Shown: positions 34,787 through 49,818 of the stretch, one piece after another | Layout of the letters: each line of letters opens with the position of its first letter | Numbering within the stretch: the first letter of the stretch is position 1 | Assembly (NCBI RefSeq): GCF_002310815.1 | Contig: NZ_CP011032.1 | Coordinates: 1,342,001 to 1,406,000 of the forward strand | Reading direction: 5' to 3' | DNA: 64,000 nucleotides | Source of the DNA: Pseudoalteromonas tunicata | GTDB taxonomy: Bacteria > Pseudomonadota > Gammaproteobacteria > Enterobacterales > Alteromonadaceae | Position numbers and translations under genes: made by a program | Notes under the pieces: generated by a model | What the model was told of the DNA's origin: nothing | Seen by the model: the letters and a program-made list of their open reading frames with translations, nothing else | Databases searched by the model: none

Positions 34787-35032
34787 GCGCTTGTTGCATT
34801 GTGATTTTTCACCACAGAGTACACCGAAGCTTCGCTCACCGAGAAAAACTAAGTGAGTAAAGCCAACTAATTAATAGCTTTTTTTTCTCTGTGTTTCTCT
34901 TAACCTCAGTGGTTAACCTTCTTTTTCACCACCGAAAACTCAGTTGTTAAAATTGTTTCACCACCGCCGAGTATTAATAGCCCCGAGGCGCTGCGCTACA
35001 CCGATATTTTGATGTTTTTTTGAGATTTTACC

Positions 35033-35497
35033 GTAGGTGCAAGCCTGCTTGCGAAGGCGAGCGCAGTTGGGCCGCTGTTGTAGGTCGGGCTTTAGCTCGA
35101 CAGTTACTTAAAAGCTGTTTTCACATCAATAACTGTGTTTAGTTTTAAAAACCGCTTTTTAAATTAGCATTGTTGTCGCACTGGCGACAGCAGCCAAGGG
35201 AGGTTATCGCCGATCTCCCCTTGGAACCCCTCGGCACCCCAGATTTTCAAAAAATAGGCAAACTGATCTTCAAAAATACATTTGATGTGAATATAACCGC
35301 CATGAAGCGGCTCGCTACTCCATCCCTGTACGCTACCCAGTTCGGCCATCCAAGGCCTCTCGTTCAAAGCAATGCTTTTCACCTCTGCCTTAGCATGGCT
35401 TGCTCGACTTCCTGTCGCGCATTATTCATCAAATCTATTTTTTCAGGTTTGATTTAGGGGGGAATTTGTTGGCATCGGCGTGAGCTTTGATATTTTT
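35033..35497 (+). repeat. Structured direct repeat, copy b (465 bp)
   Basis: Begins GTAGGTGCAAGCCTGCTTGC. It contains several hairpins: GCAAGC/GCTTGC, GTCG...CGAC around TTTAG, TGTCGC/GCGACA, and CCAAGGGAG/CTCCCCTTGG. Most of it recurs in copy c at 35498. Copy b has about 65 extra bases around 35310-35390. Confidence 0.8.
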
Positions 35498-35896
35498 GTA
35501 GGTGCAAGCCTGCTTGCGAAGGCGAGCGCAGCTCGGCCGCTGTTGTAGGTCGGGCTTTAGCTCGACAGTTATTTAAAAGCCGTTTTCACATCAATAACTG
35601 TGTTTAGTTTTAAAAACCGCTTTTTAAATTGGCATTGTTGTTGTCGCACTGGCGACAGCAGCCAAGGGGAGGCTATCGCCGGTCTCCCCTTGGAACCCCT
35701 CGGCGCCTCAAATTTTAAAAAATAGGCAAACTGATCTTCAAAAATACATTTGATGTGAACATAACCGCCATGAAGCGCCATCCATGCCTTAGCATGGCTT
35801 GCTCGACTTACTGTAGCGCATTATTCATCAAATCTATTTTTTCAGGTTTGATTGAAGGGGGAATTTGTTGGCATCAGCGTGAGCTTTGAAATGGTT
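35498..35896 (+). repeat. Structured direct repeat, copy c (399 bp)
   Basis: Close copy of b. The central stem is perfect here: CCAAGGGGAG at 35662-35671 and CTCCCCTTGG at 35684-35693. It ends where a third GTAGGTGCAAGCC begins. Confidence 0.8.
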
Positions 35897-35943
35897 GTAG
35901 GTGCAAGCCTGCTTGCGAAGACGAGCGCAGCTTGCCCGCTTTT
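35897..35943 (+). repeat. Structured repeat, partial copy d
   Basis: The first 45 or so bases of the repeat again, then unrelated sequence. This leaves the repeat as the last feature before the cassette array. Confidence 0.65.
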
Positions 35944-36209: not shown

Positions 36210-37127
36210 TTGTTTAATTTAATAATCTCTTATGATCCAGAAAGTTGGGACAGAAGCCCTCACGAGCTGGATAGAAGTCGTGTTGCAATTGAATATACTG
36301 CTGATGAAATAAGCGAGAGATACAAATTCTTTGATGAAAAAGCAATTGAGGAGCTTAAAAGCTTCCCCACGCTTTTTGTCACTGAAAACGAATCAGTAGA
36401 ATCCAGGATAGGGTATGTAACAAATATTCGCTTACGACAGAATTCTGTAGTATTCGATTTTGAATTCGACCCTGCTCTTCCGAGCTTGCCCATTGGTACT
36501 ATTGAGGCTTTGCGGGTAGATATAGATGTTGGGAGTTGGGAGCTATCGAGGACGCATTGGGCTATTAAGGATGAACCACTGTTCGATATATTGCTGCGAA
36601 AAGGTTACATTACACAACAGCAATTTAATTCATCTAAATGGGGTGCCACCCAACAACCAACCGCAGAACCACCAGTTATCCCAACCCCGCCGGGTGTTTT
36701 CAATACTTCTCAGGTTTTTATAGTTCACGGCCACGATGATATTGCCAAACTAGAAATGTCATCATTCATTTCTAGCCTAGGGTTGCAGCCTATTATTCTC
36801 CATCAGCAAGCAAGCTCAGGACGAACCATTATAGAAAAAATCGAGCATTACTCTAATGTTGGTTTTGGCGTGGTGTTATACACACCCTGTGACATTGGTT
36901 CCAAGGCTGGAGAGTTGACAGGAAACTATCGCGCTCGTCAAAATGTTGTTTTTGAGCACGGGTTTTTAATAGGTAAGCTTAGCCGCTCAAGAGTTTCCGC
37001 TGTGGTAAAAGGAAACGTTGAAACACCAAATGATATTAGCGGCGTAGTTTACGTCACAATGGATCAAGAAGGGCAATGGAAGCAGCAGCTCTCGGTAGAG
37101 TTGAGAGGAGCAGGTTATCATGTATAA
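36210..37127 (+). CDS. TIR-like (Cap12/PycTIR family) nucleotide-hydrolase protein
   Basis: 305 residues. The C-terminal domain (about 166-305) matches the TIR-like family found in Cap12 and Pycsar effectors: VFIVHGHDD (173-177), GRTIIEK with the expected catalytic Glu209, and ARQNVVFEHGF. Known relatives degrade NAD when triggered by cyclic nucleotides. The N-terminal domain (1-145) is unrecognised and is joined by a proline-rich linker (TAEPPVIPTPPG). No cyclase or other sensor gene is adjacent, so the trigger is unknown. Translation starts at TTG with AAGGA 7 bases upstream. It is followed directly by an attC site, making it the first gene of the cassette array. Confidence 0.8.
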   Translation: MFNLIISYDPESWDRSPHELDRSRVAIEYTADEISERYKFFDEKAIEELKSFPTLFVTENESVESRIGYVTNIRLRQNSVVFDFEFDPALPSLPIGTIEALRVDIDVGSWELSRTHWAIKDEPLFDILLRKGYITQQQFNSSKWGATQQPTAEPPVIPTPPGVFNTSQVFIVHGHDDIAKLEMSSFISSLGLQPIILHQQASSGRTIIEKIEHYSNVGFGVVLYTPCDIGSKAGELTGNYRARQNVVFEHGFLIGKLSRSRVSAVVKGNVETPNDISGVVYVTMDQEGQWKQQLSVELRGAGYHV

Positions 37128-37128
37128 A

Positions 37129-37195
37129 CCTAACAAAAAGCTGCACGCGGATAAATTAATCGCTACGCTCCTAATTTACCGATGAGCTTGGCGTT
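37129..37195 (+). other. attC site A (split by a MITE)
   Basis: Begins CCTAAC immediately after the TIR-like gene. Inner inverted repeat TAAATTA/TAATTTA, ending GGCGTT. The rest of the R' box (GTTAGCC) lies after the MITE at 37343. Confidence 0.75.
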
Positions 37196-37342
37196 GAGGC
37201 TGTAGAATTACTCATTTGGTCAAGTTTTTAGGTGATTTAAGGGGTCTCAAATGCATTGCTTAGTACGAGATTGTCGCTTAGAAAGCGATACAGGAGGTCA
37301 AAAAAATGGCCAAATTTATAAAAATAGAAATTCTATAGCCTC
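37196..37342 (+). mobile_element. MITE copy 1 in the attC R' box
   Basis: 147 bp. The ends are an imperfect inverted repeat, GAGGCTGTAGAATTACT and its complement AGAAATTCTATAGCCTC. GTT is present on both sides (GGCGTT before, GTTAGCC after). The left end equals that of the IS at 44281. Inside is a stem CGCTT/AAGCG and AGGAGGT with ATG at 37306. Confidence 0.8.
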
Positions 37343-37362
37343 GTTAGCCAACAAGAGTTAAT

Positions 37363-37881
37363 ATGTCAGTCATAAGCATTTATCAAGAACCGAAAGACCT
37401 TTTTTTAAAACTAGCTAGAGAGGGAAGAAGGGCTTGGACTTCAGACTCCAAAGTAGATACCGCTGATCATCTTTTCAATTACTGCATAACAGCGCATTCC
37501 TTAAGAGATTGGTGTATTAAACACCTTTCTATTCCTGAAAAAGAATTTCATGAAGTTTGTAATACCTATGAACGACTAAAGTGGTGTAGAGACATAGCTA
37601 ATTCTTCCAAACACTTTGGTCTCATGGCGGACAAAAAAAGTACCGTATCGAAGGTAAGCGATATTAAAGATGAGTTGGTTACTATCACCCCTGATGGTCA
37701 ATCTAGCTCGACTACACACAGTCGAGACTCTTTTATCATCGAAAAATCCAATGGTGAAAGTGAGTTATTGATGATGTTTCTATTTTATTCATTTTCAAAC
37801 TGGGAAGAAATATTTGATAAGTATCAAATACCAAGGTACCCAGACTCTTTAAAGACTGAAATGTTTATAGAATTTACTTAA
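37363..37881 (+). CDS. Cassette hypothetical protein
   Basis: 172 residues, soluble and mainly helical. The stretch DHLFNYCITAHSLRDW and the later CRDIANSSKHF are distinctive; the latter looks a little like HEPN-type RxxxxxH helices, but spacing differs and I do not assign a family. It lies between attC A and attC B, so it is a single-gene cassette. Function unknown; other uncharacterised cassettes carry similar proteins from memory. Confidence 0.65.
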   Translation: MSVISIYQEPKDLFLKLAREGRRAWTSDSKVDTADHLFNYCITAHSLRDWCIKHLSIPEKEFHEVCNTYERLKWCRDIANSSKHFGLMADKKSTVSKVSDIKDELVTITPDGQSSSTTHSRDSFIIEKSNGESELLMMFLFYSFSNWEEIFDKYQIPRYPDSLKTEMFIEFT

Positions 37882-37887
37882 AAGTTG

Positions 37888-37988
37888 GCTAACAAACGCT
37901 TAAACCACAAAGGACGCAAAAAAGTAGGCTTGCGCTCCTTCGTCGCTAATTTTAGCCTGCTATTTTGCGCCGATTAATCGAGGCGTTA
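37888..37988 (+). other. attC site B (interrupted by a group II intron)
   Basis: About 100 bp. GCTAAC at 37888 is the left simple box. Inner arms CAAAAAAGTAGGCT and AGCCTGCTATTTTG are complementary, and the right end GGCGTTA is cut by the intron start GTGCG at 37989. The box would be restored as GGCGTTA-TGTG after splicing. Confidence 0.8.
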
Positions 37989-38508
37989 GTGCGTCAAGCG
38001 AAGCTTGATGCATCTTGCAGGGTGCAAGTCCCTGTCGGGTAAGGTTTAACTCACCACCCGTATCGAGTGTTGCGCCTATGGCGGAGCTGTTTTTTTTTCA
38101 GCGAACAAGATAGGTGAAGCGTACACAGAGAATTAAGTAGGCCACAGGGGATCCGTGTCCCTGAAGTGCTGAGATCGCTCCGATAAATACAGTCTGACTG
38201 ACGAGGTTTGTAACGCCACTGAAGTCCAAGCAAAGCAACCGTAATGAGTGAGGTTGTGGCGAGTCAGCGGAGTTATTAAGCCGTGGCATGTTTAAAGAGA
38301 TGCATCAGGAACTTGAGAGAGCCAAAGGTGTTCCGCAAGGACGCGGTAGGGAAGCTAAGTCAAAAGCAAGGCCAACGATGACCCTTTGGCAGTCAGACCA
38401 GTTCGTAGTAGTTTGAGACGGGAAAGCCGATCACATGGCGAAGGGGCTGGCAGTTATATCACGTGTTTAGCAGACACATAGGCCGGACAATGTAGGGCTG
38501 GACTCACT

Positions 38509-39812
38509 ATGATAACCGAACTAAACGCGATCACATTTAAATCACAGCGCCACCCCAAACACAGGTTTCAGAACTTATACGGATTACTAAGGGAAGATTT
38601 CCTGTATCAAAGTTGGGGTCAGCTCAATAAACAAGCAGCCGCTGGTATTGATGGCATCACCATGCCTGCTTATCAGCAGCAACTTGTTGGCAACATTACT
38701 CGACTGAGCGATGCCCTGAAGCATAAGCGCTTTCGAGCCAATGACATCAAACGTGTCTTTATTCCCAAAGCAAATGGCAAACAGAGACCGCTGGGCTTGC
38801 CCACGGTGGATGATAAATTGGTGCAACAAGGCGTGAGCCAGATATTGCAAAGTATCTGGGAAGCGGATTTTCTGCCCAATAGCTATGGCTACCGACCGAA
38901 TAAAAGCGCCCATCAAGCGGTGCACAGTTTAGCGTTGAATCTTCAGTTTAAAGGATACGGTTACATTGTGGAGGCTGACATTAAAGGCTTCTTCAACAAC
39001 CTTGATCACAACTGGCTGATGAAGATGCTCAAACAACGCATTGATGACAAAGCCATGCTGAGTTTAATCAGCCAATGGCTTAAAGCCCGCATAAAATCAC
39101 CTGAAGGGGTATTTGAATACCCGAAAAGCGGTACGCCGCAAGGGGGGATCATTAGCCCGGTACTGGCGAACATCTACCTGCATTACGCACTCGACTTATG
39201 GTTTGAAAAGAAAGTAAAACCCCGAATGCGTGGCCGCGCGATGCTCATCCGGTACGCCGATGATTTTGTGTGTGCGTTTCAGTACGCCAACGATGCTGAG
39301 CGATTTTACGAGGTGCTGCCAAAACGACTGAAGACTTTTATTTAAACATAAGCAATTTAGAAGTGGCAGAGGAGAAAACCTCACTGCTACGATTTAGTCG
39401 ATTTCACCCGAGTCGAAAACGGCAATTTGTGTTTCTTGGTTTTGCCTTTTACTGGGCAAAAGATGCACAGGGAAAACCTCGACTCAGGCGGCGAACAGGG
39501 GCGGAAAAGCACCGCGCCAGCATGAGCGAGTTTTACCAATACATCAAAGCCAAGCGGTCAAACAAGCTCAACACTTGGATGCCGCAACTGAAACGCAAAC
39601 TGATGGGATACCGAAATTACTTTGGCCTGCCAGACAACAGCTGCAGCCTTGATAGATTGTACAGTTATGTGTTGCACAGTTTATACAAATGGCTGAATAG
39701 GCGCAGTGGCAGACGCAGTTACAATTGGAGTAATTTCAAGAAGATGCTAATGTATTATGCAATTGAGCGACCAAGAGTGAGTAAGCGATTTATTCACGTA
39801 GATTGGTACTAG
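38509..39812 (+). pseudogene. Group II intron maturase, frameshifted
   Basis: Two in-line frames make one reverse transcriptase/maturase of about 430 residues. The first (38509-39345) has the RT domain with RPLGLPTVDDKLVQ, GTPQGGIISPVLANIYLHY and the active site YADD. The second (from about 39363 to 39812) starts at LEVAEEKTSLLRFSRF and holds the maturase (GIIM/X) domain ending SRRSYNW-type and VDWY. They are separated by a 14-nt-like insertion near 39337 (TTTAAACATAAG) that adds a stop and a frame change, so the protein is probably not made whole. Confidence 0.85.
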
Positions 39813-39849
39813 GAGCGTGTTGATTTACACGCGTGAATATATAACTGAA

Positions 39850-39882
39850 GAGCCGGATGCGGTAATTCCGCACGTCCGGATC
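39850..39882 (+). other. Group II intron domain V
   Basis: A 33-base hairpin starting GAGCCGGATGCGG and ending CCGCACGTCCGGATC. The AGC triad near the start and the two-base bulge (CG) are typical of the catalytic domain V. The apical loop (TAATT) differs from the usual GNRA. Confidence 0.75.
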
Positions 39883-39944
39883 TGTGTGGGGTCGGCCCAG
39901 TAATGGGTCGCTCTACCACGATTGTGTACAAGGACAATTGAGCA

Positions 39945-40154
39945 TTGGAAAACACTCCAGAATATCCTATTTGCATCGTTTATGAGGACGAAACAGAAAA
40001 TGTTGTGTTAGCTAACGCAATGGAGGTTATGACTCACCTCGAATGGTTTGACTCTGATGATCCTGAATCTTGTGCTCAAGTAACAGATGCAAAAAATAAA
40101 GCTGTTAGCCTTAAAGTTGAAGCTCTGGAAATTATAGAGCTAAAGTACACATAA
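39945..40154 (+). CDS. Small acidic cassette protein
   Basis: 69 residues, soluble and acidic, starting TTG with AAGGA upstream. No family recognised. It lies after the intron and ends at attC C, so it is the cassette whose upstream attC was interrupted. TTG start and lack of homologue evidence keep this tentative. Confidence 0.55.
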   Translation: MENTPEYPICIVYEDETENVVLANAMEVMTHLEWFDSDDPESCAQVTDAKNKAVSLKVEALEIIELKYT

Positions 40155-40253
40155 CAAGGCAAATTAAAAAGGGCGGACAAAAACCAGTTGGCTTTGTTCG
40201 TGCCTCACAAACTATAGCCAACTAATTTTTGCCGTTTATTTGCGGCGTTAAGT
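40149..40253 (+). other. attC site C
   Basis: 105 bp. ACATAAC at the left end and GTTAAGT at the right end fit RYYYAAC and GTTRRRY. Arms CAGTTGGCT and AGCCAACT pair. It overlaps the stop codon of the preceding gene. Confidence 0.85.
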
Positions 40254-40274
40254 TGCTGAAAGGAAATCGCAGCT

Positions 40275-40646
40275 ATGGGAAGAAGGTATCGTAGGAGGCG
40301 TAGCAATAGCATCGTGTCTGTAATTCCAGATATAGTGCATATCGCGTCGCGATTGCCGTGGTGGGGGGCACTGCTGACGGGAGTTATTTCTTACTTTCTC
40401 ATTGCTATTCTTCTTGGTGGTTACATCGAAGGGCATATTGCTAGTCAAGCCGGGAGTAAATTCTACGTCATTATCGAGGCTCGCTATGGCCGTTTGGTGC
40501 ACGTATGCAATTGGGTAGGTATAGCGTGTTTTGTTGTTGGGTTATTCTTCGCAATCCGTAACTACTTTGTTTTCAATCGTGCTACCAGCAACGAAAAAGG
40601 TATTGTTACTTTTATTTCTAAATTAATAGGCCGTAGCATTGATTAG
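40275..40646 (+). CDS. Cassette membrane protein with Arg-rich N-terminus
   Basis: 123 residues: basic start (MGRRYRRRRSN), then two transmembrane helices (about 33-53 and 82-102). The first resembles the membrane module LPWWGALLTGVISY seen at the N-terminus of some Mrr-type restriction proteins, but no nuclease domain follows; that likeness is from memory and weak. GAAAGGAAA ribosome site. Confidence 0.6.
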   Translation: MGRRYRRRRSNSIVSVIPDIVHIASRLPWWGALLTGVISYFLIAILLGGYIEGHIASQAGSKFYVIIEARYGRLVHVCNWVGIACFVVGLFFAIRNYFVFNRATSNEKGIVTFISKLIGRSID

Positions 40647-40651
40647 TCGCA

Positions 40652-40739
40652 ACTTAACAAGCGCATGTTGTTCGCCCCTGCGGGGCTGGGACCTCCGTTC
40701 CGCTGCGCTTCACTTCGGCCCCAAATGCGGGCGTTATAT
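40652..40739 (+). other. attC site D
   Basis: 88 bp, GC-rich type. ACTTAAC at the left, GGGCGTTATAT at the right. Internal GCCCCTGCGGGGC hairpin. Distinct from the longer attC sites B, C, G and H. Confidence 0.8.
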
Positions 40740-40754
40740 GCCAAGGAGGTTTCG

Positions 40755-40988
40755 GTGGAAGAGTTAGCCGAAGGAGCATTCAAAGCTATTCTTAGATTTA
40801 TCCGCTTCATCCTATTGGAAGCTATTTGCGAGTTTCTTATCTATTGGGTTGGTCGTATATTTCTAAATATTGTTACTTTAGGTAATTATCCTCGTGGCCG
40901 ACAGGTTGAAGATCATGAAGGTCGCATTATATGTACGGGATTTGCGGTAATTATCCTAACCATTGTCTTGATAAGTCTTTATGTCTAA
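40755..40988 (+). CDS. Small cassette membrane protein
   Basis: 77 residues from GTG at 40755, preceded by AGGAGG at 6 bases. Two transmembrane helices (about 17-38 and 57-76). The open frame reaches back to 40665, but that stretch is the upstream attC. Unknown function. Confidence 0.6.
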   Translation: MEELAEGAFKAILRFIRFILLEAICEFLIYWVGRIFLNIVTLGNYPRGRQVEDHEGRIICTGFAVIILTIVLISLYV

Positions 40989-40994
40989 ATTGGC

Positions 40995-41072
40995 ATATAA
41001 CAATCGCCATCAAAACGCCGCTTCGCGGCTCGACTCGCAACACGTTGCTCGCGCTTGTGGCGGGCGTTATAT
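40995..41072 (+). other. attC site E
   Basis: 78 bp. ATATAAC at the left and GGGCGTTATAT at the right. Internal stems CGCCGCTTCGCGGC and CAACACGTTG. Same GC-rich type as D and F. Confidence 0.85.
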
Positions 41073-41090
41073 GTTAAGGCATCATGTTCA

Positions 41091-41605
41091 GTGAAAACTT
41101 TGTTATTAGTCATTACATATATTTTTTTCGCAGGTAAGGCATTTGCTGAAGAACCAAACTGCTCTGAGAATGAAGCTTTTCATGGCTTGATGTTTGAGTT
41201 ATCAGTTAACATTCGCTACGTGACGATATGGTTTTCAGGTTTTGCGTTGGGAAAGATGCAAGTTTTTTGGTTTCGGAGCTATATCAGACAGCCTATGTGT
41301 CTGAATATGGGATAAGACCAGCGTTGAATTATCATTCCAAAGTCAGGCTCACCAGTGAGATAAAAAGCAAAATTGATGATTTGTATAAAAATGCTTTGCT
41401 TAATTCACGGCCTGATAATATTAGGGGGTTGGACGGCTCAACTTGGTGTTTTCGGCCAAAATCAGGCAATTCGTACACTGAGCTTTGCTACTGGTCTCCA
41501 ATTGAACATCCAGAAAGTAAAAGAGGCCTGAAAGATATATCAAATTTAGGTATTTATCTGTTTGATATATCTGGATTGCAAGAATACGGAGGAGTATTTC
41601 AGTAA
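41091..41605 (+). pseudogene. Frameshifted secreted cassette protein
   Basis: Starts GTG at 41091 with a clear signal peptide (MKTLLLVITYIFFAGKAFA), continues about 40 residues, and then the frame is interrupted near 41255. The downstream reading (GKDASFLVSELYQTAYVSEY to 41605) continues smoothly in another frame. Joined, they give a secreted protein of about 170 residues. Either a one-base indel in the gene or a sequencing error. No family recognised. Confidence 0.6.
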
Positions 41606-41618
41606 TGATGAACACTCC

Positions 41619-41695
41619 ATATAACAAGCGCCTTAAACAACGCGGCCTGCGGCCGCTGGACTCGCAACAAGTTGCTCGCCGTTTAGGCGTGCGTT
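41619..41695 (+). other. attC site F (split by MITE 2)
   Basis: 77 bp. ATATAAC, internal GCGGCCTGCGGCCGC and CAACAAGTTG stems, ending GTGCGTT. The R' box continues GTTAGC after the MITE. Confidence 0.8.
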
Positions 41696-41842
41696 GAGGC
41701 TGTAGAATTACTAATTTGGTCAAGTTTTTAGGTGATTTAAGGGGTCTCAAATGCATTGCTTAGTACGAGATAATCGCTTAGAAAGCGATACAGGAGGTCA
41801 AAAAAATGGCCAAATTTATAAAAATAGAAATTCTACAGTCTC
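41696..41842 (+). mobile_element. MITE copy 2 in the attC R' box
   Basis: 147 bp, close to copy 1, with right end AATTCTACAGTCTC. AGGAGGT and ATG are kept, and the frame continues to a TAG formed with the flanking GTTAG. A second frame starting ATG CAT TGC further upstream is open for 44 codons and overlaps the next gene's start. Confidence 0.82.
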
Positions 41843-41871
41843 GTTAGCTTTCTTATCAACATTGGAGTTTT

Positions 41872-42387
41872 ATGAAAGGTTATAGATGGACTTGTAACGC
41901 ATGTAGTGTTGGAAATGCTTCAAATGAAACTCATTGTTCAAAGTGTGGCTGTTCTGCAACAGCAGGTACAGAAGATATTGAAAAGCATAAAAACCCTGGG
42001 GGTTTTAAGAAAAGAAAAACAATCGAAGAATATAAAAAACAGCTATTACCTCTTTTATTTTCTCCATTTTTCTTAGTTATTTACATGCATAATGGTAAAT
42101 TCGAAATTGCTTTACTTTTATTTGTAGCCGTAGCTTTTATTATTACTAAAAATCTTAAGTTGTTGCTTTACATATCTACTGATAAAAAAGCCAAAACCAT
42201 GCTACTTACGTTTTCCTGCACATTATTACTGTTTATTTTAACTAGGATTTATCTAATTCCTGATAATAGTTCTTCTGTAGGTTGGGGCGTTTTGTTCTAC
42301 TTTATTTTTACTTTTGGCTTTATGTATTATTTCACTAAAGGTAAAAGGTTCAATAAGTTACTCGAACAGTATTACAAAAAAAGCTAA
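41872..42387 (+). CDS. RanBP2-type zinc-finger membrane protein, copy 1
   Basis: 171 residues. A single N-terminal W-x-C-x2-C-x10-C-x2-C finger (WTCNACSVGNA..., CSKC, residues 6-25) resembles RanBP2-type zinc ribbons. About four transmembrane segments follow (from about residue 58 to the end). Preceded by GGAG 7 bases before ATG. Identical in protein sequence to the gene at 42654. Function unknown. Confidence 0.7.
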   Translation: MKGYRWTCNACSVGNASNETHCSKCGCSATAGTEDIEKHKNPGGFKKRKTIEEYKKQLLPLLFSPFFLVIYMHNGKFEIALLLFVAVAFIITKNLKLLLYISTDKKAKTMLLTFSCTLLLFILTRIYLIPDNSSSVGWGVLFYFIFTFGFMYYFTKGKRFNKLLEQYYKKS

Positions 42388-42477
42388 CAAGAAATTAAAC
42401 AAGGACAAAAAACAGTTGGTTTTTGCTCCTGCGTCGCTTATTTTAACCAACTATTTTTTGCCTGTTAATTAGGCGTT
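42383..42477 (+). other. attC site G1
   Basis: 95 bp. GCTAAC overlaps the stop codon, inner arms AACAGTTGGTT and AACCAACTATT pair, ends AGGCGTT. Long type. Confidence 0.85.
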
Positions 42478-42624
42478 GAGGTTGTAGAATTACTTATTTG
42501 GTCAAATTTTTAGGTGATTTAAGGGGTCTCAAATGTATTGCTTAGTGTGAGATCATCGCTTAGAAAGCGATACAGGAGGTCAAAAAAATGGCCAAATTTA
42601 TAAAAATAGAAATTCTACAGTCTC
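42478..42624 (+). mobile_element. MITE copy 3 in the attC R' box
   Basis: 147 bp. A few base changes distinguish it from copies 1 and 2 (GAGGTTGTAG, AAATGTATTGC, GTGTGAGATC) and are shared with copy 4. The upstream small frame is stopped after five codons (TGA); the AGGAGGT-ATG segment is intact. Confidence 0.82.
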
Positions 42625-42653
42625 GTTAGCTTTCTTATCAACATTGGAGTTTT

Positions 42654-43169
42654 ATGAAAGGTTATAGATGGACTTGTAACGCATGTAGTGTTGGAAATGC
42701 TTCAAATGAAACTCATTGTTCAAAGTGTGGCTGTTCTGCAACAGCAGGTACAGAAGATATTGAAAAGCATAAAAACCCTGGGGGTTTTAAGAAAAGAAAA
42801 ACAATCGAAGAATATAAAAAACAGCTATTACCTCTTTTATTTTCTCCATTTTTCTTAGTTATTTACATGCATAATGGTAAATTCGAAATTGCTTTACTTT
42901 TATTTGTAGCCGTAGCTTTTATTATTACTAAAAATCTTAAGTTGTTGCTTTACATATCTACTGATAAAAAAGCCAAAACCATGCTACTTACGTTTTCCTG
43001 CACATTATTACTGTTTATTTTAACTAGGATTTATCTAATTCCTGATAATAGTTCTTCTGTAGGTTGGGGCGTTTTGTTCTACTTTATTTTTACTTTTGGC
43101 TTTATGTATTATTTCACTAAAGGTAAAAGGTTCAATAAGTTACTCGAACAGTATTACAAAAAAAGCTAA
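42654..43169 (+). CDS. RanBP2-type zinc-finger membrane protein, copy 2
   Basis: Identical protein to the gene at 41872, exactly 782 bp downstream. Together with its attC and MITE it forms a tandem duplicate; the copy has had no time to diverge. Same finger and transmembrane layout. Confidence 0.7.
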   Translation: MKGYRWTCNACSVGNASNETHCSKCGCSATAGTEDIEKHKNPGGFKKRKTIEEYKKQLLPLLFSPFFLVIYMHNGKFEIALLLFVAVAFIITKNLKLLLYISTDKKAKTMLLTFSCTLLLFILTRIYLIPDNSSSVGWGVLFYFIFTFGFMYYFTKGKRFNKLLEQYYKKS

Positions 43170-43259
43170 CAAGAAATTAAACAAGGACAAAAAACAGTTG
43201 GTTTTTGCTCCTGCGTCGCTTATTTTAACCAACTATTTTTTGCCTGTTAATTAGGCGTT
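43165..43259 (+). other. attC site G2
   Basis: Copy of site G1, 782 bp away, ending AGGCGTT directly before MITE 4. Confidence 0.85.
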
Positions 43260-43407
43260 GAGGTTGTAGAATTACTTATTTGGTCAAATTTTTAGGTGAT
43301 TTAAGGGGTCTCAAATGTATTGCTTAGTGTGAGATCATCGCTTAGAAAGCGATACAGGAGGCCATAAAAAATGGGCAAATTTATAAAAATAGAAATTCTA
43401 CAGTCTC
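43260..43407 (+). mobile_element. MITE copy 4 in the attC R' box
   Basis: 148 bp, one base longer near 43364. Its SD (AGGAGG, 43356-43361) and ATG at 43371 open a 26-codon leader frame, MGKFIKIEILQSR then cassette-encoded YVFLGINRTLRDL. This stops at TGA 43449-43451, overlapping the ATG of the next gene at 43448. Confidence 0.8.
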
Positions 43408-43447
43408 GTTATGTTTTTCTCGGGATTAATCGAACATTGAGGGATCT

Positions 43448-43831
43448 ATGAACAATCAAAAACTATTAAAAAAGTATGCAAATTCGTTTGTTTCTTCAAT
43501 AAAGCCGAACATAAAAAGTGGATACAATATTTCGGCAAATATTCATCCAACTAATGGACGTGGCGCAACGATTGAATTTGAGATTGTCGATTCGAAGAAA
43601 TCTAAAGTTTCAGTAGTTCCTGCTGTAGAAAGTGTAAATAGAACTTTAGCCACCATTGAGCAAAGATTAATTGGTGGAAATATAGAAGGAGTTACCTTTG
43701 CAGGAACTAACGTTTACATGGAAGGCAACAGAATAGTCATCATTAAAGGAGATGACGAACACAGCAGCTGGGATAACCGTGCCGCTCGAGCAGATGTTCA
43801 AAAAGTAATTTCTCCAAAAGGAGAAAATTAA
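43448..43831 (+). CDS. Cassette hypothetical protein, gene 1 of a pair
   Basis: 127 residues, soluble, mixed alpha/beta. No family recognised. Its ATG overlaps the stop of the MITE-borne leader frame (ATGA), and its own stop overlaps the next gene (TAATG), so the three frames are probably translated in a coupled chain. This is a two-gene cassette, less common than single-gene cassettes. Confidence 0.65.
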   Translation: MNNQKLLKKYANSFVSSIKPNIKSGYNISANIHPTNGRGATIEFEIVDSKKSKVSVVPAVESVNRTLATIEQRLIGGNIEGVTFAGTNVYMEGNRIVIIKGDDEHSSWDNRAARADVQKVISPKGEN

Positions 43832-44214
43832 TGAACGGAACCGTGCGACAAGACGAAGTGTTAGGTCACTTAGATCAAAGGCTCTTGATTCTAGAAAACA
43901 ATAAATGGGAGACATGGTTTGGAAAGCACCCAGGGATTGTACTAGGTGTTGTAATAGCGTCATTATCAACAGCCTTTTGGATGTACCATACGTGGCAAAT
44001 AGAGCGCCTAGAGAAGAATTTTAATACCCAAATTACAGAGTTAAAGTCACAAAATAAGGGGCGAATTGATTGGTTAAAAGAGCAACAAACGGAACGGTTG
44101 TCATCTCTAAAAGACAAATGTTCATTAGAAAAAAGCCAAATTAACAATCAATTGCTTCAATGTAATTCGGCAACTGAAAAACATAACAAGGCAATTAAAA
44201 AAGCGGACTCATAA
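43831..44214 (+). CDS. Cassette membrane/coiled-coil protein, gene 2 of a pair
   Basis: 127 residues: an N-terminal cytosolic piece, one transmembrane helix (about 34-52) and a long charged coiled coil (about 58-120). The TAATG overlap with the preceding gene suggests that the two products work together. The 3' end overlaps attC H. Function unknown; a membrane anchor for the soluble partner is one guess. Confidence 0.65.
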   Translation: MNGTVRQDEVLGHLDQRLLILENNKWETWFGKHPGIVLGVVIASLSTAFWMYHTWQIERLEKNFNTQITELKSQNKGRIDWLKEQQTERLSSLKDKCSLEKSQINNQLLQCNSATEKHNKAIKKADS

Positions 44215-44280
44215 CAGTTGGCTGAGTTTCGCTGCGCTACACATTATAGCCAACTATTATTTGCCGTTTATTGCGGCGTT
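44181..44280 (+). other. attC site H (split by the IS)
   Basis: 100 bp. ACATAAC at the left lies inside the last codons of the preceding gene. Arms AACAGTTGGCT and AGCCAACTATT. Ends GCGGCGTT, directly followed by the IS left end GAGGCTG. Confidence 0.85.
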
Positions 44281-46279
44281 GAGGCTGTAGAATTACTCAT
44301 TTAAGGAACGGATTCTATACTTCTTTATTTGCTCGATTTTTAACCTTGAACCCACCGGGTGACTGTGATCTAATAGATATTATTCACCCACGGTAACGTG
44401 TTATGGCTCTTTCGTTGGGTTAGGAGCCAAGCCTGACTTATCCTGCCAAAATAAATTCATTCCTATCAATTTTTCAGAGCAAATTCTGCCTGGCACTTTT
44501 GAGTATGCCCTTTGTTATATTGTCGAAAATAAACTCGATTTAACGGGTTTTGATGCATGGTACAACAACGATAAAACAGGTGCAGCGGCGTATTCACCTG
44601 CGGTGATGCTCAAAATTATTCTGCTGGGTTATGCACATGGTTTGATCAGTAGTCGTCGCATTGCTAAGGCGTGTGAAGACAATATTTTGTTCATGAGACT
44701 CTTTTGCAAGAAATAGCGGGTGACGTGCAGCCGCATTTCACCTCAATCGCGGCCTTTGTGGCTAAAATGCACGAGCAGATTGAACCATTATTTACGCAAG
44801 TTCTGATGATATGCGACGCAGAAGGCTTAATAGGCCGTAATATGTTTGCTATTGATGGCTGGCACTTTATTTTAACGAAAGAAGTCGAATGCAAGTAAAG
44901 ACAAATTTAGCGGGAATAAATTTGAACAGCGTAGCTGGCCTGAAAGGTGAGTATCAGGACGATACGAATAATGGAGCGGTACATTCGATGAGTTAGGCCG
45001 TAAAAAAGCAAAACTAGAACGCGCAAGTAAACGCATCATTGAACGCCATCAAGCCCAAGATGGCCTAAGTGAAGAGCTGGTCACACAAGACTTAAAGCAA
45101 AAAGAAAAGCTCGATAAAAGTGCAGGTAAAATAAGCGCGTTTTTAGCCACTCACGAAGAAAAAACAGGCAGTAAAGGTAAGCCGGTTAAAAGTAATATCA
45201 CCGACCCTGACAGCGCTAAAATGACCACCTCAAAAGGCACCATTCAAGGCTACAACGGTATTGCGATAAATGACGATAAGCACCAAATACGTTCTTTGGG
45301 TAAAGAGGGCAAGCACAAGCGTGGGGTTCGGTGGGCGAGCAACAAACCTTGCAGCCAGCCGTTAATCAATTAAAACAACAACTCGCTAAACTCAACGCAA
45401 ACCGAACGTCAAAGGAACAGGCCATCAAATTCACCGCAGACAGTGGCTTTAATAGCGAAGCGAACCTCGAATTTATGGCGAAAAGTGGCTTTGATACTTA
45501 CATAGCAGATAACCAATTTAGAAAACGCAACCCACTGTTTAAAGAGAGCGAAACCTACGAAACAGAGCAAGAAAAGCGCCGATTAAAACGCAGTAAAGGT
45601 AAGCCGCGGTTATTTCCCTCGGATGACTTCCACTATGATGAAGTAACCCAAACCTGCCGCTGCCCCGCAGGCAATGAGATGTGGCGAAGTGGTATCAATG
45701 TCAACAGCCATCATCAACAATACACCCGATTCTGCGGTTACTTAAAAGACTGTAAAATTTGCCCGCTGCAACAACAATGCATGCGAAAGCCACCGATAAA
45801 AACAGGGCGGCAAGTGCAGTTTAAGAATGATGAATCACGCAAAAAAGTCAGTTACATCGACAAAATGAAAGTAAAAATAGACAGCCCAATGGGACGACAA
45901 CATCTTTTTATTCAAGGAATGGCAAACGACTCGGCTGTATCAAACCTGCTTTCCTTTAAATAAAAGGCGGAATATCACCGTCAATAAAGGCATGAATAAA
46001 TTGACCTTGCGTGGTCAAACGAAAGTGAATGCCCAGTGGCAACTGTATTGCTTGGTTCATAATATAGAAAAGCTGCAAAACAGGATGCATTAAGCAGGGG
46101 AAACCCTTTTTACCTCAAAAACTCACCAAACCTGCTTAAACACCCCTCTAAAAACCCCAATAAATCTGAATATTAACTAATAATCTAAAAACGACTAAAC
46201 GATTGAATCAAAATAGGAACTCAGATATTGTTGGTGCATTAATCAAAATAAATTTTAAAACGAGTAATTCTATATGCTC
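44281..46279 (+). mobile_element. IS1182-like insertion sequence, degraded
   Basis: 1999 bp. Left end GAGGCTGTAGAATTACTCATTT and right end ACGAGTAATTCTATATGCTC are imperfect inverted repeats. GTT flanks both ends (GGCGTT before, GTTAAAT after). It encloses a DDE transposase gene with several frameshifts. The family name rests on protein recall. Confidence 0.75.
44456..46093 (+). pseudogene. IS1182-like transposase, multiply disrupted
   Basis: Fragments in order: FIPINFSEQILPGTFEYA (44456 on) with the DUF772-type N-terminal domain; a shift near 44705 and more sequence to AIDGW at about 44865, then scrambled sequence up to about 44970; KAKLERASKRIIERHQA (about 45010) with the central part; another lesion near 45290; a longer intact stretch 45331-45963 with the Cys-rich CRCPAGNE...CKICPLQQQC motif; a last shift near 45910 and the end LVHNIEKLQ...H at 46093. 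At least four lesions; no active product is expected. Without start codon in the first frame. Confidence 0.8.
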
Positions 46280-46306
46280 GTTAAATGGATTTGAGGAAAT
46301 TCGCAA

Positions 46307-46492
46307 ATGGATAAATTTGAATATCGTGTAGATAGTATTAGTGGCATCTTTAAGTCGCGTTTGACTAAGCTTTCCAATCTTCAGAGTCTCTGTGATTCAA
46401 ATGGTAAGGAAGGTTGGGAATTGGTTAATGTTACTTATGATTGGTTGTTAGTTTCCTATACCTTGTTTTTTAAACGTAAAACACACAACTAG
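46307..46492 (+). CDS. DUF4177-like small cassette protein
   Basis: 61 residues in the pattern 'YRVDSI...LQSLCDSNGKEGWELVNVTYDW...LFFKRK', typical of DUF4177 proteins. These are small soluble alpha/beta proteins of unknown function. Ribosome site GAGGAAA, ATG start, attC I follows. Confidence 0.7.
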   Translation: MDKFEYRVDSISGIFKSRLTKLSNLQSLCDSNGKEGWELVNVTYDWLLVSYTLFFKRKTHN

Positions 46493-46501
46493 AATGTATC
46501 T

Positions 46502-46578
46502 ATTTAACAAGCTAAGTCAACGGAAACCCTCTCACTGGCTGCGCCACAACGTTCGCATTTTCCGCTGCTTGGGGCGTT
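46502..46578 (+). other. attC site I (split by IS remnant 2)
   Basis: 77 bp. ATTTAAC left, GGGGCGTT right, inner arms CAACGGAAA and TTTTCCGCTG. Followed directly by the IS left end GAGGCTGTAAG. Confidence 0.8.
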
Positions 46579-46855
46579 GAGGCTGTAAGTTTACTCATTT
46601 CAGGAACGGATTCTACATTTCTTTCTTTGCTCGATTTTTAACCGTTCGCTGTGATCTAATAGATGTTATTCACCCACGGTAACGTGTTATGGCTCTTTCG
46701 TGGGGTAAGGAGTCAAGCCTGACTTATCCTGTCAAAATAAATTCATTCCTATCAATTTCGCTGAGCAAATATTGCCAGGTACATTTGAGTATGTGAAAAA
46801 AACCTGTCAACCACAAATCTCATTGATATTATTAACTTTACCGCATTAAAAACAT

Positions 46856-46885
46856 TAAACCTCACAAATGAGTGAGGCTTTTTAT
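46856..46885 (+). terminator. Terminator-like hairpin in IS remnant 2
   Basis: Stem CCTCAC/GTGAGG with loop AAATGA followed by CTTTTTATTT. It could end transcription on the + strand and, less well, on the minus strand after the small frame at 46957. Confidence 0.6.
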
Positions 46886-46956
46886 TTACAGCTGACCTGT
46901 ATTTTGTCGCGATAAATCATGGCGCTACAACTAGCGTCTTTATCTCAAAATGCGTT

Positions 46957-47106
46957 TTAATCGTTTGAACTATTCGCGGTTATAGCTGCACATTTTTCAA
47001 CCTTGTTGTAGCACTGCGCCTCGGTGAGATCGGTGGTGACATATCTTTTACTCACAACGCCATCAAAGCCCTCACTGATACCGCAATAAAACTCCCATAA
47101 ATTCAT
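46957..47106 (-). CDS. Possible small minus-strand protein in IS remnant 2
   Basis: A 49-codon frame beginning MNLWEFYCGISEGFDGVVSK and ending TANSSND. Composition looks protein-like (several Cys, aromatic and acidic residues). It lies within the replacement part of the IS remnant and reads against all neighbouring cassettes, and the hairpin at 46856 lies past its stop. I see no strong ribosome site. May be a fragment of a former gene. Confidence 0.3.
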   Translation of the reverse strand: MNLWEFYCGISEGFDGVVSKRYVTTDLTEAQCYNKVEKCAAITANSSND

Positions 47107-47246
47107 AATTTTAAATACTAAAGCAAAACTGACTAAACAATTGAATCAAAATAGGAACTCAGCTATGGTTTGTAGACTAAAAAAAATAAATTTAAAACGA
47201 GTAATTCCACAGGCTAGTTATACATTACTCAGAAAATGGAGTTCAA

Positions 47247-47693
47247 ATGAGTTCGACTAATAATTCAAATAGGGTTTTTCAAGATTTTCCAATAAACGTA
47301 AAGCTAATAATATCCTCACTTTGGGTGGCAGTAATGTTTTGCTATGTATATGGTGATTATATTGAAGTTTATGTTCCTGGAGTGATAGCTAATGCGATGG
47401 AAGTCACATCAGCGAAAGAAGGGATTCAATTAGAGTTCTTTGCCGTAGCTCTACTTATGTCTGTTCCAAGTGTAATGATATTTCTTACTTTAGTGTTAAA
47501 ACCGAGAATTAATCGCTGGTTAAATATAATCATACCTACTTTATACATAGTCCTTCTGATTGCGATAAACCTACAAACTACATGGGGTTTCTATTTATAC
47601 CTAACGGCTATTGAGATATTACTTTCAATTTATACTGTTTGGTATGCGTGGAATTGGCCTAAAACCGAACAATATTCAGTAGGTGTTATATAA
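47247..47693 (+). CDS. Four-helix membrane protein, DUF6326-like
   Basis: 148 residues with four transmembrane helices; the opening NVKLIISSLWVAVMFCYVYG and DYIEVYVPG pattern reminds me of DUF6326 proteins. Function unknown. GGAG lies 7 bases before the ATG, just after the IS remnant's right end. The stop overlaps a half attC. Confidence 0.65.
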   Translation: MSSTNNSNRVFQDFPINVKLIISSLWVAVMFCYVYGDYIEVYVPGVIANAMEVTSAKEGIQLEFFAVALLMSVPSVMIFLTLVLKPRINRWLNIIIPTLYIVLLIAINLQTTWGFYLYLTAIEILLSIYTVWYAWNWPKTEQYSVGVI

Positions 47694-47700
47694 CAAGTTC
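47688..47700 (+). other. Half attC site (left box only)
   Basis: ATATAACAAGTTC at the stop of the preceding gene is a proper left attC box, but no pairing right half follows; IS-derived sequence starts within about 60 bases. The right half was probably deleted. Confidence 0.5.
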
Positions 47701-47752
47701 ATCATGAAGAGGAAACTAGATACTCATCAATATCTCGGTTTAAATATCAAAG

Positions 47753-47831
47753 AAAAACGATTGAATAAAAATAAGATTTCAGTTGTCGCTAGCTAATTTA
47801 TAGAAATTGAAACGAGTAATTATACAAGCTT
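47753..47831 (+). mobile_element. IS1182-like right-end remnant 3
   Basis: AACGATTGAATAAAAATAAGATTTCAG... and AAACGAGTAATTATACAAGCT align with the right 110 bases of the IS at 44281. It is followed by GTTAG, the same flank as the others. Confidence 0.65.
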
Positions 47832-48051
47832 GTTAGTTATTTTTAACGTTCTAAAAATTAAATCGAATGTTGTTTTTAAAAAGTAATAATGTAGTGCTCA
47901 AGTTAAATTGGCTACTGCAAAATCTCTTTTTCAAAGCTGAGCTTAAATAGAAATAGGGCGTTTAATGGGGCAGTGTACTTCAATTAAAAAAGATATTTAT
48001 GGATGCCATATATTTCCATTGTGTATTTTTTAAACTCTACAGAAAGGTTCA

Positions 48052-48393
48052 ATGATGACAATTTTCAACATTGCGCTGTTAAGTAATCTTTTAATAAACA
48101 TATCTTTAGATATTATGGAGAATAGCTGGAATAGATCTCAATGTTTACTGATATCTTTTATTGTATCGCTCACATTTGTACTCGATGAGTCGAAATGGCT
48201 GCTTCCAAATACCGATAAGTTTTATGCATGGCTAAAAAGATTTGTAGTTTCATACTTAACGTGTGAAATAACTCTTCTAGTGAATTTTATTTATATTTTG
48301 CTTAACAAATATAGTGTTACTTCAATTTCATGGTATGCACCGAGCATGGTCATGCTTGGGATATTGATTTATAGATACCGTCGAAAAAATTAG
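48052..48393 (+). CDS. Cassette membrane protein
   Basis: 113 residues with about three to four transmembrane helices. The start is ATGATG; AAAGG is 4 bases before the first and 7 before the second ATG, so 48055 is equally possible. No family recognised and no attC visible downstream. Confidence 0.55.
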   Translation: MMTIFNIALLSNLLINISLDIMENSWNRSQCLLISFIVSLTFVLDESKWLLPNTDKFYAWLKRFVVSYLTCEITLLVNFIYILLNKYSVTSISWYAPSMVMLGILIYRYRRKN

Positions 48394-48713
48394 ACGAGTT
48401 TAAATTTGGAAATAAAAAAGATGGTATCGAATTGTCTCTATCCTGACATTAAGCTAAAAATTTACATAGAGTATTCACTAAGGTTTTTAAAATAGATTAG
48501 TTCATAATGTCAAGAAGTAGAAAAAAGAATTAACTAAGCAAGTGAAACCTTTTTAGCCTTAAAAAACTTAAAGCCACAAAGACAAACCACTAAAAATAAA
48601 TGATTAAGATTCAATTAATCTTAGTGTAAATAATTGAATGGAAATAGGAACTGGGATATTATTGTTGGATAAAAAAATAAATTTAAATATTGGTAAAAAG
48701 GTTTAATTTTTGA
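48394..48713. other. Intergenic region with IS remnant 4
   Basis: 320 bases. The first 130 hold nothing I recognise; the remainder is the diverged IS right end (next entry). A TAAGATT/AATCTTA hairpin lies at about 48606-48634. Confidence 0.4.
48532..48693 (+). mobile_element. IS1182-like right-end remnant 4
   Basis: AAGCAAGTGAAACC...TTTTTAGCC and later ATTGAATGGAAATAGGAACT and AATAAATTTAAATA follow the right end of the IS at 44281 in order, with more divergence than the other copies. The final inverted repeat is hardly recognisable. Confidence 0.5.
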
Positions 48714-49226
48714 ATGAATTATCTTAAAAAATTACAGATTGTACTTGTAGTGTTCTTTATATCTGGTTGTGCAGCAAATATTAAGGAGGTTATTCATACT
48801 CCTATTAATGTAGACCAGAATGTTCAAAATCATTCAGTTTACTTGGATGTTTCACCTGCAAAATCATTGTCAAAAAGTAAAGATTTGACTCGAAGTATCG
48901 GTGAACTTGAGAAGTTAATTTCTAAAAATTTCAGTGTAGTGAAAAATAAATCTAGTTCAAATTTAGTAGTGAATATATCAATTGAAAATTTTAGATTCGT
49001 ATCAGGCTTTGGCCGGTTTATGGCTGGTGCGATAGTTGGGAATGCCCAATTAATGCTAAAAATCAAAATAACTGAACTATCTTCAGGCAAAGTCATTGGA
49101 GAATCATTTTTTGATACTCAATCTGAATTTAGTGAAGGGGTTTTTGGTGCTACGACATCTAGACAGCTTGAAGCTATGGCTATGAAAATCACAGAATATA
49201 TAAATTCTACTAGCAAAAATACCTAG
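48714..49226 (+). CDS. DUF4410-like lipoprotein
   Basis: 170 residues. Signal peptide with lipobox ISGC (Cys about 19) followed by AANIKE. The mature part with FRFVSGFGRFMAGAIVGNAQL and ...KVIGESFFDTQS is like DUF4410 periplasmic lipoproteins. Asn at +4 and no Asp at +2 favour the outer membrane. Role unknown. It starts just after an IS right-end remnant with a weak AAAAGG site. Confidence 0.68.
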   Translation: MNYLKKLQIVLVVFFISGCAANIKEVIHTPINVDQNVQNHSVYLDVSPAKSLSKSKDLTRSIGELEKLISKNFSVVKNKSSSNLVVNISIENFRFVSGFGRFMAGAIVGNAQLMLKIKITELSSGKVIGESFFDTQSEFSEGVFGATTSRQLEAMAMKITEYINSTSKNT

Positions 49227-49446
49227 CAAATAATAAATAACTAGTCGCTTGATGCTTTTGATGTTAAAAGTAAAACTCACTATGATAACCATAACGGAAG
49301 CTTCTAAATTCTTTCGAAACAGCTTGAAAAATACAAAGCGCCATAAATATTTTCATTGATAAATCGATATTCATTTAATTAAAAATATTCTACTTCATAA
49401 TATTAAGATGTTTTTTATCATTGCTCTTACAGCTAAATACATACTC

Positions 49447-49590
49447 TTAGATTGTGTCGTGATACATCACGACATACACGTCGATTAAATCAAGATTGAG
49501 CCTTGGGTGTGAATGATAACGAGCCGTAATAAACTCAATCAATTCTTGGTGTCGCGCAGCGTCTCCGTGCGCTTGATGGTGAGTATGCAT
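49447..49590 (-). pseudogene. Possible gene fragment (minus strand)
   Basis: A 47-codon frame ending ...LNLDLIDVYVVMYHDTI with a preceding HGDAARHQELIEFI. Composition is protein-like and frame continues some way before the ATG, but a stop cuts it there. It looks like the C-terminal end of a longer gene that was lost. Family not recognised. The palindrome GTCGTGAT/ATCACGAC lies in the last codons. Confidence 0.3.
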
Positions 49591-49667
49591 TGGAAATGCC
49601 CTAGGTTTTACCTGCTTCATTCATCAAATCAACGGCTTAGAAATTTTTGAGCGTCATAAACTCGTTT

Positions 49668-49818
49668 TGTTAAACTCCCACTTAAATACCTTTAAAAATC
49701 ATGCTGAATCATTTTGTTAAGTTTCGATGGAAAAGCAACTAAACCATTGAATCAAAATAGGAACTCAGTTATCGTCGGTTAATTAAAAATAAATTTAAAT
49801 AGGCAATTTTAGAGGCCC
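49668..49818 (+). mobile_element. IS1182-like right-end remnant 5
   Basis: AACTAAACCATTGAATCAAAATAGG, AATAAATTTAAATAGG and GGCAATTTTAGAGGCC align with the right end of the IS at 44281; flank CGTTAG follows. Confidence 0.6.

Follow-up and report, generated by a model that had tools for sequence, protein, structure and literature searches.

IS1182-like insertion sequences and MITEs at the attC sites of an integron cassette array in Pseudoalteromonas tunicata

Integron elements in the window and the host genome

The 64,000-nucleotide stretch of DNA analysed here (the window) is part of contig 1 of the Pseudoalteromonas tunicata genome, which comprises two contigs and 4.96 Mb, and it contains integron cassette genes and attC sites within positions 37131-49818. 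Among these lie four miniature inverted-repeat transposable elements (MITEs), one insertion sequence (IS) and one internally deleted IS, all on the forward strand, each of which starts GAGG(C/T)TGTA directly 3' of the GCGTT of an attC and is followed directly by GTT. As the original prediction had proposed, one transposon group and its MITEs thus appear to have struck the GTT in the R' box of attC repeatedly.

The first attC (37131..37195; covariance model R1, 36.9 bits, E 1.8e-6), whose last three bases are the GTT target, precedes a 147-bp MITE of type A (MITE-A) at 37196..37342, flanked on both sides by GTT. A second 147-bp MITE-A copy (41696..41842) follows the attC at 41622..41695 (model R1, as for all sites below; 24.5 bits, E 0.0021), and two attC sites that score 98.5 bits each, at 42385..42477 and 43167..43259, precede respectively a chimeric MITE-A copy (42478..42624) and one of 148 bp (43260..43407). 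The IS, about 2.0 kb long with a broken transposase frame and GTT on both sides (44281..46279), lies after the attC at 44184..44280 (84.8 bits), and the deleted IS, 638 bp long with both ends kept (46579..47216), follows a weak model match at 46505..46578 (20.1 bits, E 0.026). The attC at 40152..40249 (78.7 bits) is without insertion and provides a comparison site. Beyond the six right ends the GTT continues as GTTAG three times, GTTAT twice and GTTAA once, and the expectation that it would mostly read GTTAG is not borne out. Three right-end remnants had also been placed in equal positions; those at 47755..47831 and 49686..49818 are indeed followed by GTTAG, and the one at 48628..48693 is too degraded to be assigned, its sub-terminal repeat but not its terminal bases being recognisable.

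GCGTT occurs 148 times in the window, both strands counted, and all six elements nevertheless lie at attC ends. A covariance model, trained on 20 insertion-free attC sites cut at GTT, was built because the first hairpin test, which requires YAAC, scored 0 at 16 of 105 sites, several of them owing to another IS end in place of the R'' box. In the window search each of the six elements has a model match whose last base directly adjoins its start (E 9e-22 to 0.026), and the attC matches before elements are complete to the GTT. In that hairpin test, which is separate from the model, 65 of 105 insertion sites pass at -12 kcal/mol, compared with 6 of 105 control GCGTT sites. This test alone cannot decide single sites, because L223, a locus counted as non-attC, scores -15.9.

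The host genome carries 25 full MITE-A copies and one truncated copy, together with 12 IS left ends and 46 IS matches, many of which are only pieces. All 25 full MITE-A copies have the same end toward attC; GTT precedes 24 (GCGAT at L021) and follows 24 (GTG at L013), and two are the second copies in stacks of the form MITE-GTT-MITE. Model matches from the genome search adjoin 18 of the 25 MITE-A copies and 9 of the 12 IS left ends (27/37). The ten other ends include the two stacked copies, three window elements recovered by the window search (37196, 41696 and 46579), three ends with an adjoining match at E <= 0.005 in a locus search (L004, L034 and L035), one whose adjoining match reaches only E 0.18 (L005) and one with no match (L012). 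In total, 33 of 35 unstacked host ends adjoin an attC match at E <= 0.03, a figure that pools E-values from genome, window and locus searches of different size. The model was trained on one attC type, and 150 of 4345 candidates were scored in the genome search, which is not an attC census; 27 of its 45 matches carry an element, so that array annotation should take such elements into account, and one of the other 18 is the antisense image of an occupied site. Among relatives, 45 of 54 unstacked ends adjoin an attC match at E <= 0.01. The nine that do not are L144, L145 (second), L076 (first), L085, L087, L088, L104, L123 and L133, of which L088 is attC-like by eye and L087 and L104 are within genes.

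One full integron integrase gene (C1:2266860) and three split ones (G000, C1:2394213-2395150, C1:2669660-2670605 and C2:911911-912848) were found in the host, which thus has several integrons, most with a broken integrase.

Transposase, element ends and target duplication

The transposase carries the Pfam domains DUF772 and DDE_Tnp_1_6, both above their cut-offs, Pfam finding DDE-type domains only, and it scores 258 bits with the NCBIfam IS1182 model NF033551, below the cut-off of 270; its earlier description as IS1182-like agrees with these results. Residues D130, D293 and E456, presumably the catalytic DDE residues, are invariant in all 16 aligned transposases, two outgroup IS1182 members included. 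In a tree of 39 transposases (from 40 rows, L107 being left out because it has no long open frame), all 33 rows of the attC group fall together in a single clade with support 100/100, which a branch of 3.19 separates from L221 and the five plasmid outgroups; the program issued a long-branch warning. No attC was seen by eye in the outgroup flanks, and L231 has GACC on both sides. The elements are thus probably DDE insertion sequences of a deep, separate branch of the IS1182 family, accompanied by MITEs that share their ends.

These ends read GAGGCTGTAGAA.. on the left and ..TTCTACAG(C/G/T)CTC on the right, with short terminal inverted repeats. One host IS copy, 1864 bp long and intact (C1:2257822-2259685), keeps a full open transposase frame (C1:2258014-2259513), and the other full copies are mostly 1735-2038 bp. 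Complete short elements number 48, and 44 of them measure 145-148 bp, with GTT on both sides, the ends of the IS and no transposase. The loci collected include 26 copies of MITE-A, two of them from genome G092, and 19 of MITE-B, the two types sharing a short core; MITE-C (L068) aligns in reverse, and two types of 176-177 bp share the ends. Only five of 108 genomes of the genus have any MITE-A match, and full-length copies are confined to the host and G092, which suggests recent amplification of MITE-A in the host.

A scan of Genome Taxonomy Database (GTDB) genomes with the transposase gave 78 loci, whose closest named relatives are mostly Pseudoalteromonas and whose genera include Shewanella, Colwellia, Pseudocolwellia, Psychromonas, Psychrosphaera, Marinomonas, Motilimonas, Thalassotalea and Paraglaciecola, as well as metagenome-assembled genomes. 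Elements with these ends, at this position, are found again in Pseudoalteromonas, Shewanella, Colwellia, Psychromonas and Marinomonas, among others. By eye, the left end directly follows GTT at 32 of 35 loci read from the transposase start (the others being L095, L099 and L126, the last of which has another IS upstream), and GTT follows the right end at 47 of 51 loci checked (not at L074, L089, L095 and L126). Within the host order 26 of 295 genomes match at 1e-30, and with the more distant transposase of L185 as query 24 of 369 genomes of the class match, the host being included in both counts. The host transposase shares 46% and 43% identity with those of L185 and L188, and both loci have GAGGCTGTAGAA-like ends after GTT, as do the L185 relatives L199-L202, L204, L206, L209, L210 and L212 (40-74% identical to L185). 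An attC-like hairpin precedes the GTT at most sites of this group, exceptions being L203, without such a hairpin, and L223, in a gene-like stretch; the left end was not found in L213, L216, L220 and L221.

An occupied site can be compared with its empty counterpart in Pseudoalteromonas flavipulchra, where the left flank lies in a 701-codon open frame (L104), which we take to be a phage-tail-type gene, and the right flank on another contig (L113). Together these flanks match one continuous stretch in five orthologues (L241-L245), reading GCGTTAGG with a single GTT, whereas GCGTT-IS-GTTAGG stands in the occupied copy; in L246 (71%), a sixth relative, this GTT is lacking, and L240 was uninformative. 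The single GTT in the empty orthologues implies that three base pairs are duplicated on insertion and that nothing is lost. Of the 3-4 bp originally proposed for the duplication, the GTT itself therefore stands at 3 bp and the value of 4 bp does not. A second candidate for such proof, L087, was rejected: its two flanks read as different genes, so that a deletion or rearrangement must have followed insertion.

Could the sequence GAGGCTG.. instead simply be how certain cassettes begin, its spread being due to the integrase and not to transposition? The element start does coincide with a cassette boundary, and GTTGAGG resembles the GTTRRRY core. The right flanks of MITE-A copies differ, however, a tandem duplication apart, and the end precedes many different cassettes; it bounds full IS copies with open transposase frames, and it is found inside ordinary genes. 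The cassette 3' of the window MITE 43260..43407, moreover, is present without the MITE in genome G034 (L148), with a 2-bp difference at the junction. We regard a cassette origin as hardly credible, and the sequence as a transposon end, as first proposed.

Target recognition and its exceptions

The position of insertion raises the question of what the transposase reads. A matrix derived from 97 distinct flanks has the consensus GCC.CTTA....GGCGTT, and copies kept out of it were scored against 1886 GTT sites in the non-integron part of the window. Two such insertions within genes, L104 (21.8) and L087 (15.8), score above every one of these background sites; both closely resemble the final ~17 bp of attC, without a match to the attC model. 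Two attI-like sites, L196 and L237, fall in the top 0.3% and top 0.5% of the background. L196 adjoins an integrase-like frame, a 182-residue piece that scores 188 bits with TIGR02249, for which the cut-off of 265 applies to the whole protein. In stacks the GTT of the site has been used once more, even with GAGG downstream of it, and the information needed should thus lie upstream of the GTT. Since L087 and L104 mimic the attC end, the transposase would recognise mainly the attC 3' end (about GCC.CTTA....GGC followed by GTT) as local DNA, and the element would be joined across the three bases GTT. MITEs would be moved in trans by the transposase encoded intact elsewhere in the same genome (C1:2258014-2259513).

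An alternative is that the transposase recognises the folded attC, as a cruciform or single-stranded hairpin, and inserts at its 3' foot in the manner of IS1272. This distant relative, with 24.9% transposase identity, is described in the available portions of PMC5678879 and PMC4923244 as inserting at inverted repeats; an attC hairpin is present at most of the insertion sites, and group IIC-attC introns use the same place. Yet L104 and L087, which lie in genes and have no match to the attC model, imitate the attC end in sequence, attI-like sites are also used, and the GTT is duplicated without loss, unlike the outcome for IS1272. At several sites, too, another IS end now stands in place of the R'' box, having arrived either before or after the insertion. 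Folding as the principal signal thus seems rather unlikely. The fold of attC may still assist recognition, and L223 and L234 show that some insertions escape a rule based on local DNA.

It is also conceivable that there is no real targeting, insertions elsewhere having been purged by selection while arrays merely tolerate them. Copies outside attC do exist, and in genomes G353 and G641 they are among near-identical, hence young, copies. Against this, GCGTT is plentiful elsewhere in the window, yet the exact base and orientation are repeated; all three copies in genome G212 are in attC; and the off-target sites L087 and L104 match far more than the pentamer. We consider purging alone very improbable.

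Recognition mainly of the attC 3' end, by transposases of this IS1182 branch that target the R' GTT, is thus our favoured and probable explanation, against which a number of observations weigh. The matrix does not explain all off-target copies, because L236 (in a repeat-rich gene; top 2.3% of background), L234 (13%) and L223 (34%) score within the background, and its bases are also those that attC itself conserves. G353 has two copies in attC, two in attI-like sites and one in a gene, and G641 has two in attC and two elsewhere; with those of G212 this gives 12 copies, seven in attC, two attI-like and three elsewhere. Between copies of equal length in these three genomes there are 0-5 base differences (L171, L204 and L239, being of other lengths, stand outside this base-by-base comparison), and only two of the seven near-identical copies in G353 and G641 are in attC (L235 and L238), so that young insertions in these two genomes are less strictly targeted than the collection suggests. 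The left end faces attC in nearly all cases, but at the same GTT a Catenovulum element (L167; 60% identical across 73% of the query) is inserted in the opposite direction, and MITE-C is likewise reversed. Finally, the transposase tree has long branches, and the clean empty-site comparison is of one site only. Copies away from attC, which the original prediction had named as counting against such precision, were therefore found (L087, L104, L236, L223 and L234, to which the attI-like L196 and L237 are to be added), but they are a minority of the copies examined. As judged from sequence, most insertions appear to occur at a single precise position, the R' GTT of attC, through targeting that is strong and not absolute.

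Cassette arrays and comparison with known systems

An insertion of this kind would leave intact, upstream, the attC hairpin with a near-consensus core (GTTGAGG) and, downstream, a core of the form GTTR, and hence would fall between cassettes. Repeated ends would in addition let homologous recombination duplicate cassettes, as can be read at 41696-43407. The MITE at 42478 is identical to that at 43260 over positions 1-102 and to that at 41696 from position 78 on, and the 635 bp that follow it are identical to the 635 bp after the MITE at 41696. Unequal crossing-over between two MITEs would leave such a chimera, with the cassette duplicated without integrase. Since a usable-looking core is left on both sides, MITEs could become the front part of cassettes and so travel twice, by transposase and by integrase, with their repeats driving cassette duplication and loss, in a lineage that has become specialised for integrons through recognition of the core end that attC and attI have in common. 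Taken jointly, these proposals are tentative, and we think it somewhat doubtful that all of them hold.

Several features of the elements and their surroundings were noted in passing. In MITE-A (for example at window 37290-37345) AGGAGG and an ATG are accompanied by a short frame that reads outward (MAKFIKIEIL..) and often stops at the TAG of the target. A role as leader peptide for the next cassette gene was considered, 22 of 25 copies matching AGGAGG with a nearby ATG, and was dropped, as MITE-B does not have this frame and most IS right ends inspected do not keep it. At L068, L073, L079, L082 and L083 a hairpin and T run just inside the left end, seen by eye, could stop transcription entering from upstream cassettes. 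A scan of window positions 37100-46800 gave 16 promoter-like sites compared with 22.7 expected, and 17 terminator-like sites compared with 9.2 expected. The gene before the first attC (36228-37127) encodes a CAP12/Pycsar-type TIR effector domain and is likely an anti-phage gene in cassette position, and repeats of ~150-160 bp with tandem-like spacing (families D6 and D7) lie upstream of the array at 35024-35943.

Other mobile elements occupy the same sites. A group II intron follows the GCGTTA of an attC in the window (37989 to about 39919), in the manner of group IIC-attC introns, with an Rfam group-II-D1D4-6 match at 38025-38282 and a reverse transcriptase frame in two parts. At L005 the 5' end of this intron comes after a MITE and GTTA, so that two kinds of attC elements share one site. 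The end of an IS110-family element (L031 3784-4737, Pfam DEDD_Tnp_IS110) stands in place of the R'' box at L002, L009, L013, L019, L026, L031 and L108, as does that of a second, unclassified element at L024, L068, L078, L172 and L203; some attC sites are therefore occupied at both ends.

Integrons are a main means for bacteria to gather genes and reshuffle them. A DNA transposon lineage favouring attC would be a third, unrelated answer to living between cassette genes, after the IS1111-attC elements and the group IIC-attC introns, and raises the question of how a transposase of IS1182 type recognises about 20 bp of DNA. Its repeats would be a source of cassette duplication independent of the integrase, and gene libraries would be reshaped by such elements while the genes are mostly spared. 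An open-literature search showed no report of an attC-targeting IS1182 element among the results read; ISfinder and subscription papers lay outside its scope, and an ISfinder entry is possible. The available text of PMC9229058 reports no IS interrupting attC in Shewanella integrons. With the two systems just named attC is a known niche, whose IS1182-type occupant appears new within the literature covered.

Within the IS1182 family, ISPse1 resembles the present elements in its 16-bp inverted repeats and short duplication, which is listed as 4 bp (PMC3281130) compared with 3 bp here; the sections of that paper available make no mention of attC targeting. IS1272/TnSha1 has a homologous transposase, and is described in the portions available of PMC5678879 and PMC4923244 as preferring hairpin regions, leaving the target unduplicated, deleting its hairpin partly or wholly and having no primary sequence consensus. 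In contrast, the present elements duplicate GTT, lose nothing at the one site compared and have a strong target consensus. Group IIC-attC introns such as S.ma.I2 likewise insert at attC, according to what is accessible of PMC8876359 and PMC9229058, and the example in the window lies beside GTTA; these are retroelements with a ribozyme and reverse transcriptase, unlike the DDE elements described here. The closest functional parallel is the IS1111-attC group (ISKpn4, ISPst6), whose targeting of cassette attC sites, mentioned in the original prediction, is in line with the accessible text of PMC11187229 and PMC12444791, citing Tetu and Holmes 2008 and Post and Hall 2009. The present elements work like this group in inserting into attC but are not members of it. 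Elements of the IS110/IS1111 family have a DEDD transposase and a guide RNA (PMC11187229, in the part available), and an IS110-family element is found at the opposite end, R'', of certain attC sites that the present elements use, whereas the elements at the R' GTT have a DDE transposase related to IS1182 and are accompanied by MITEs.

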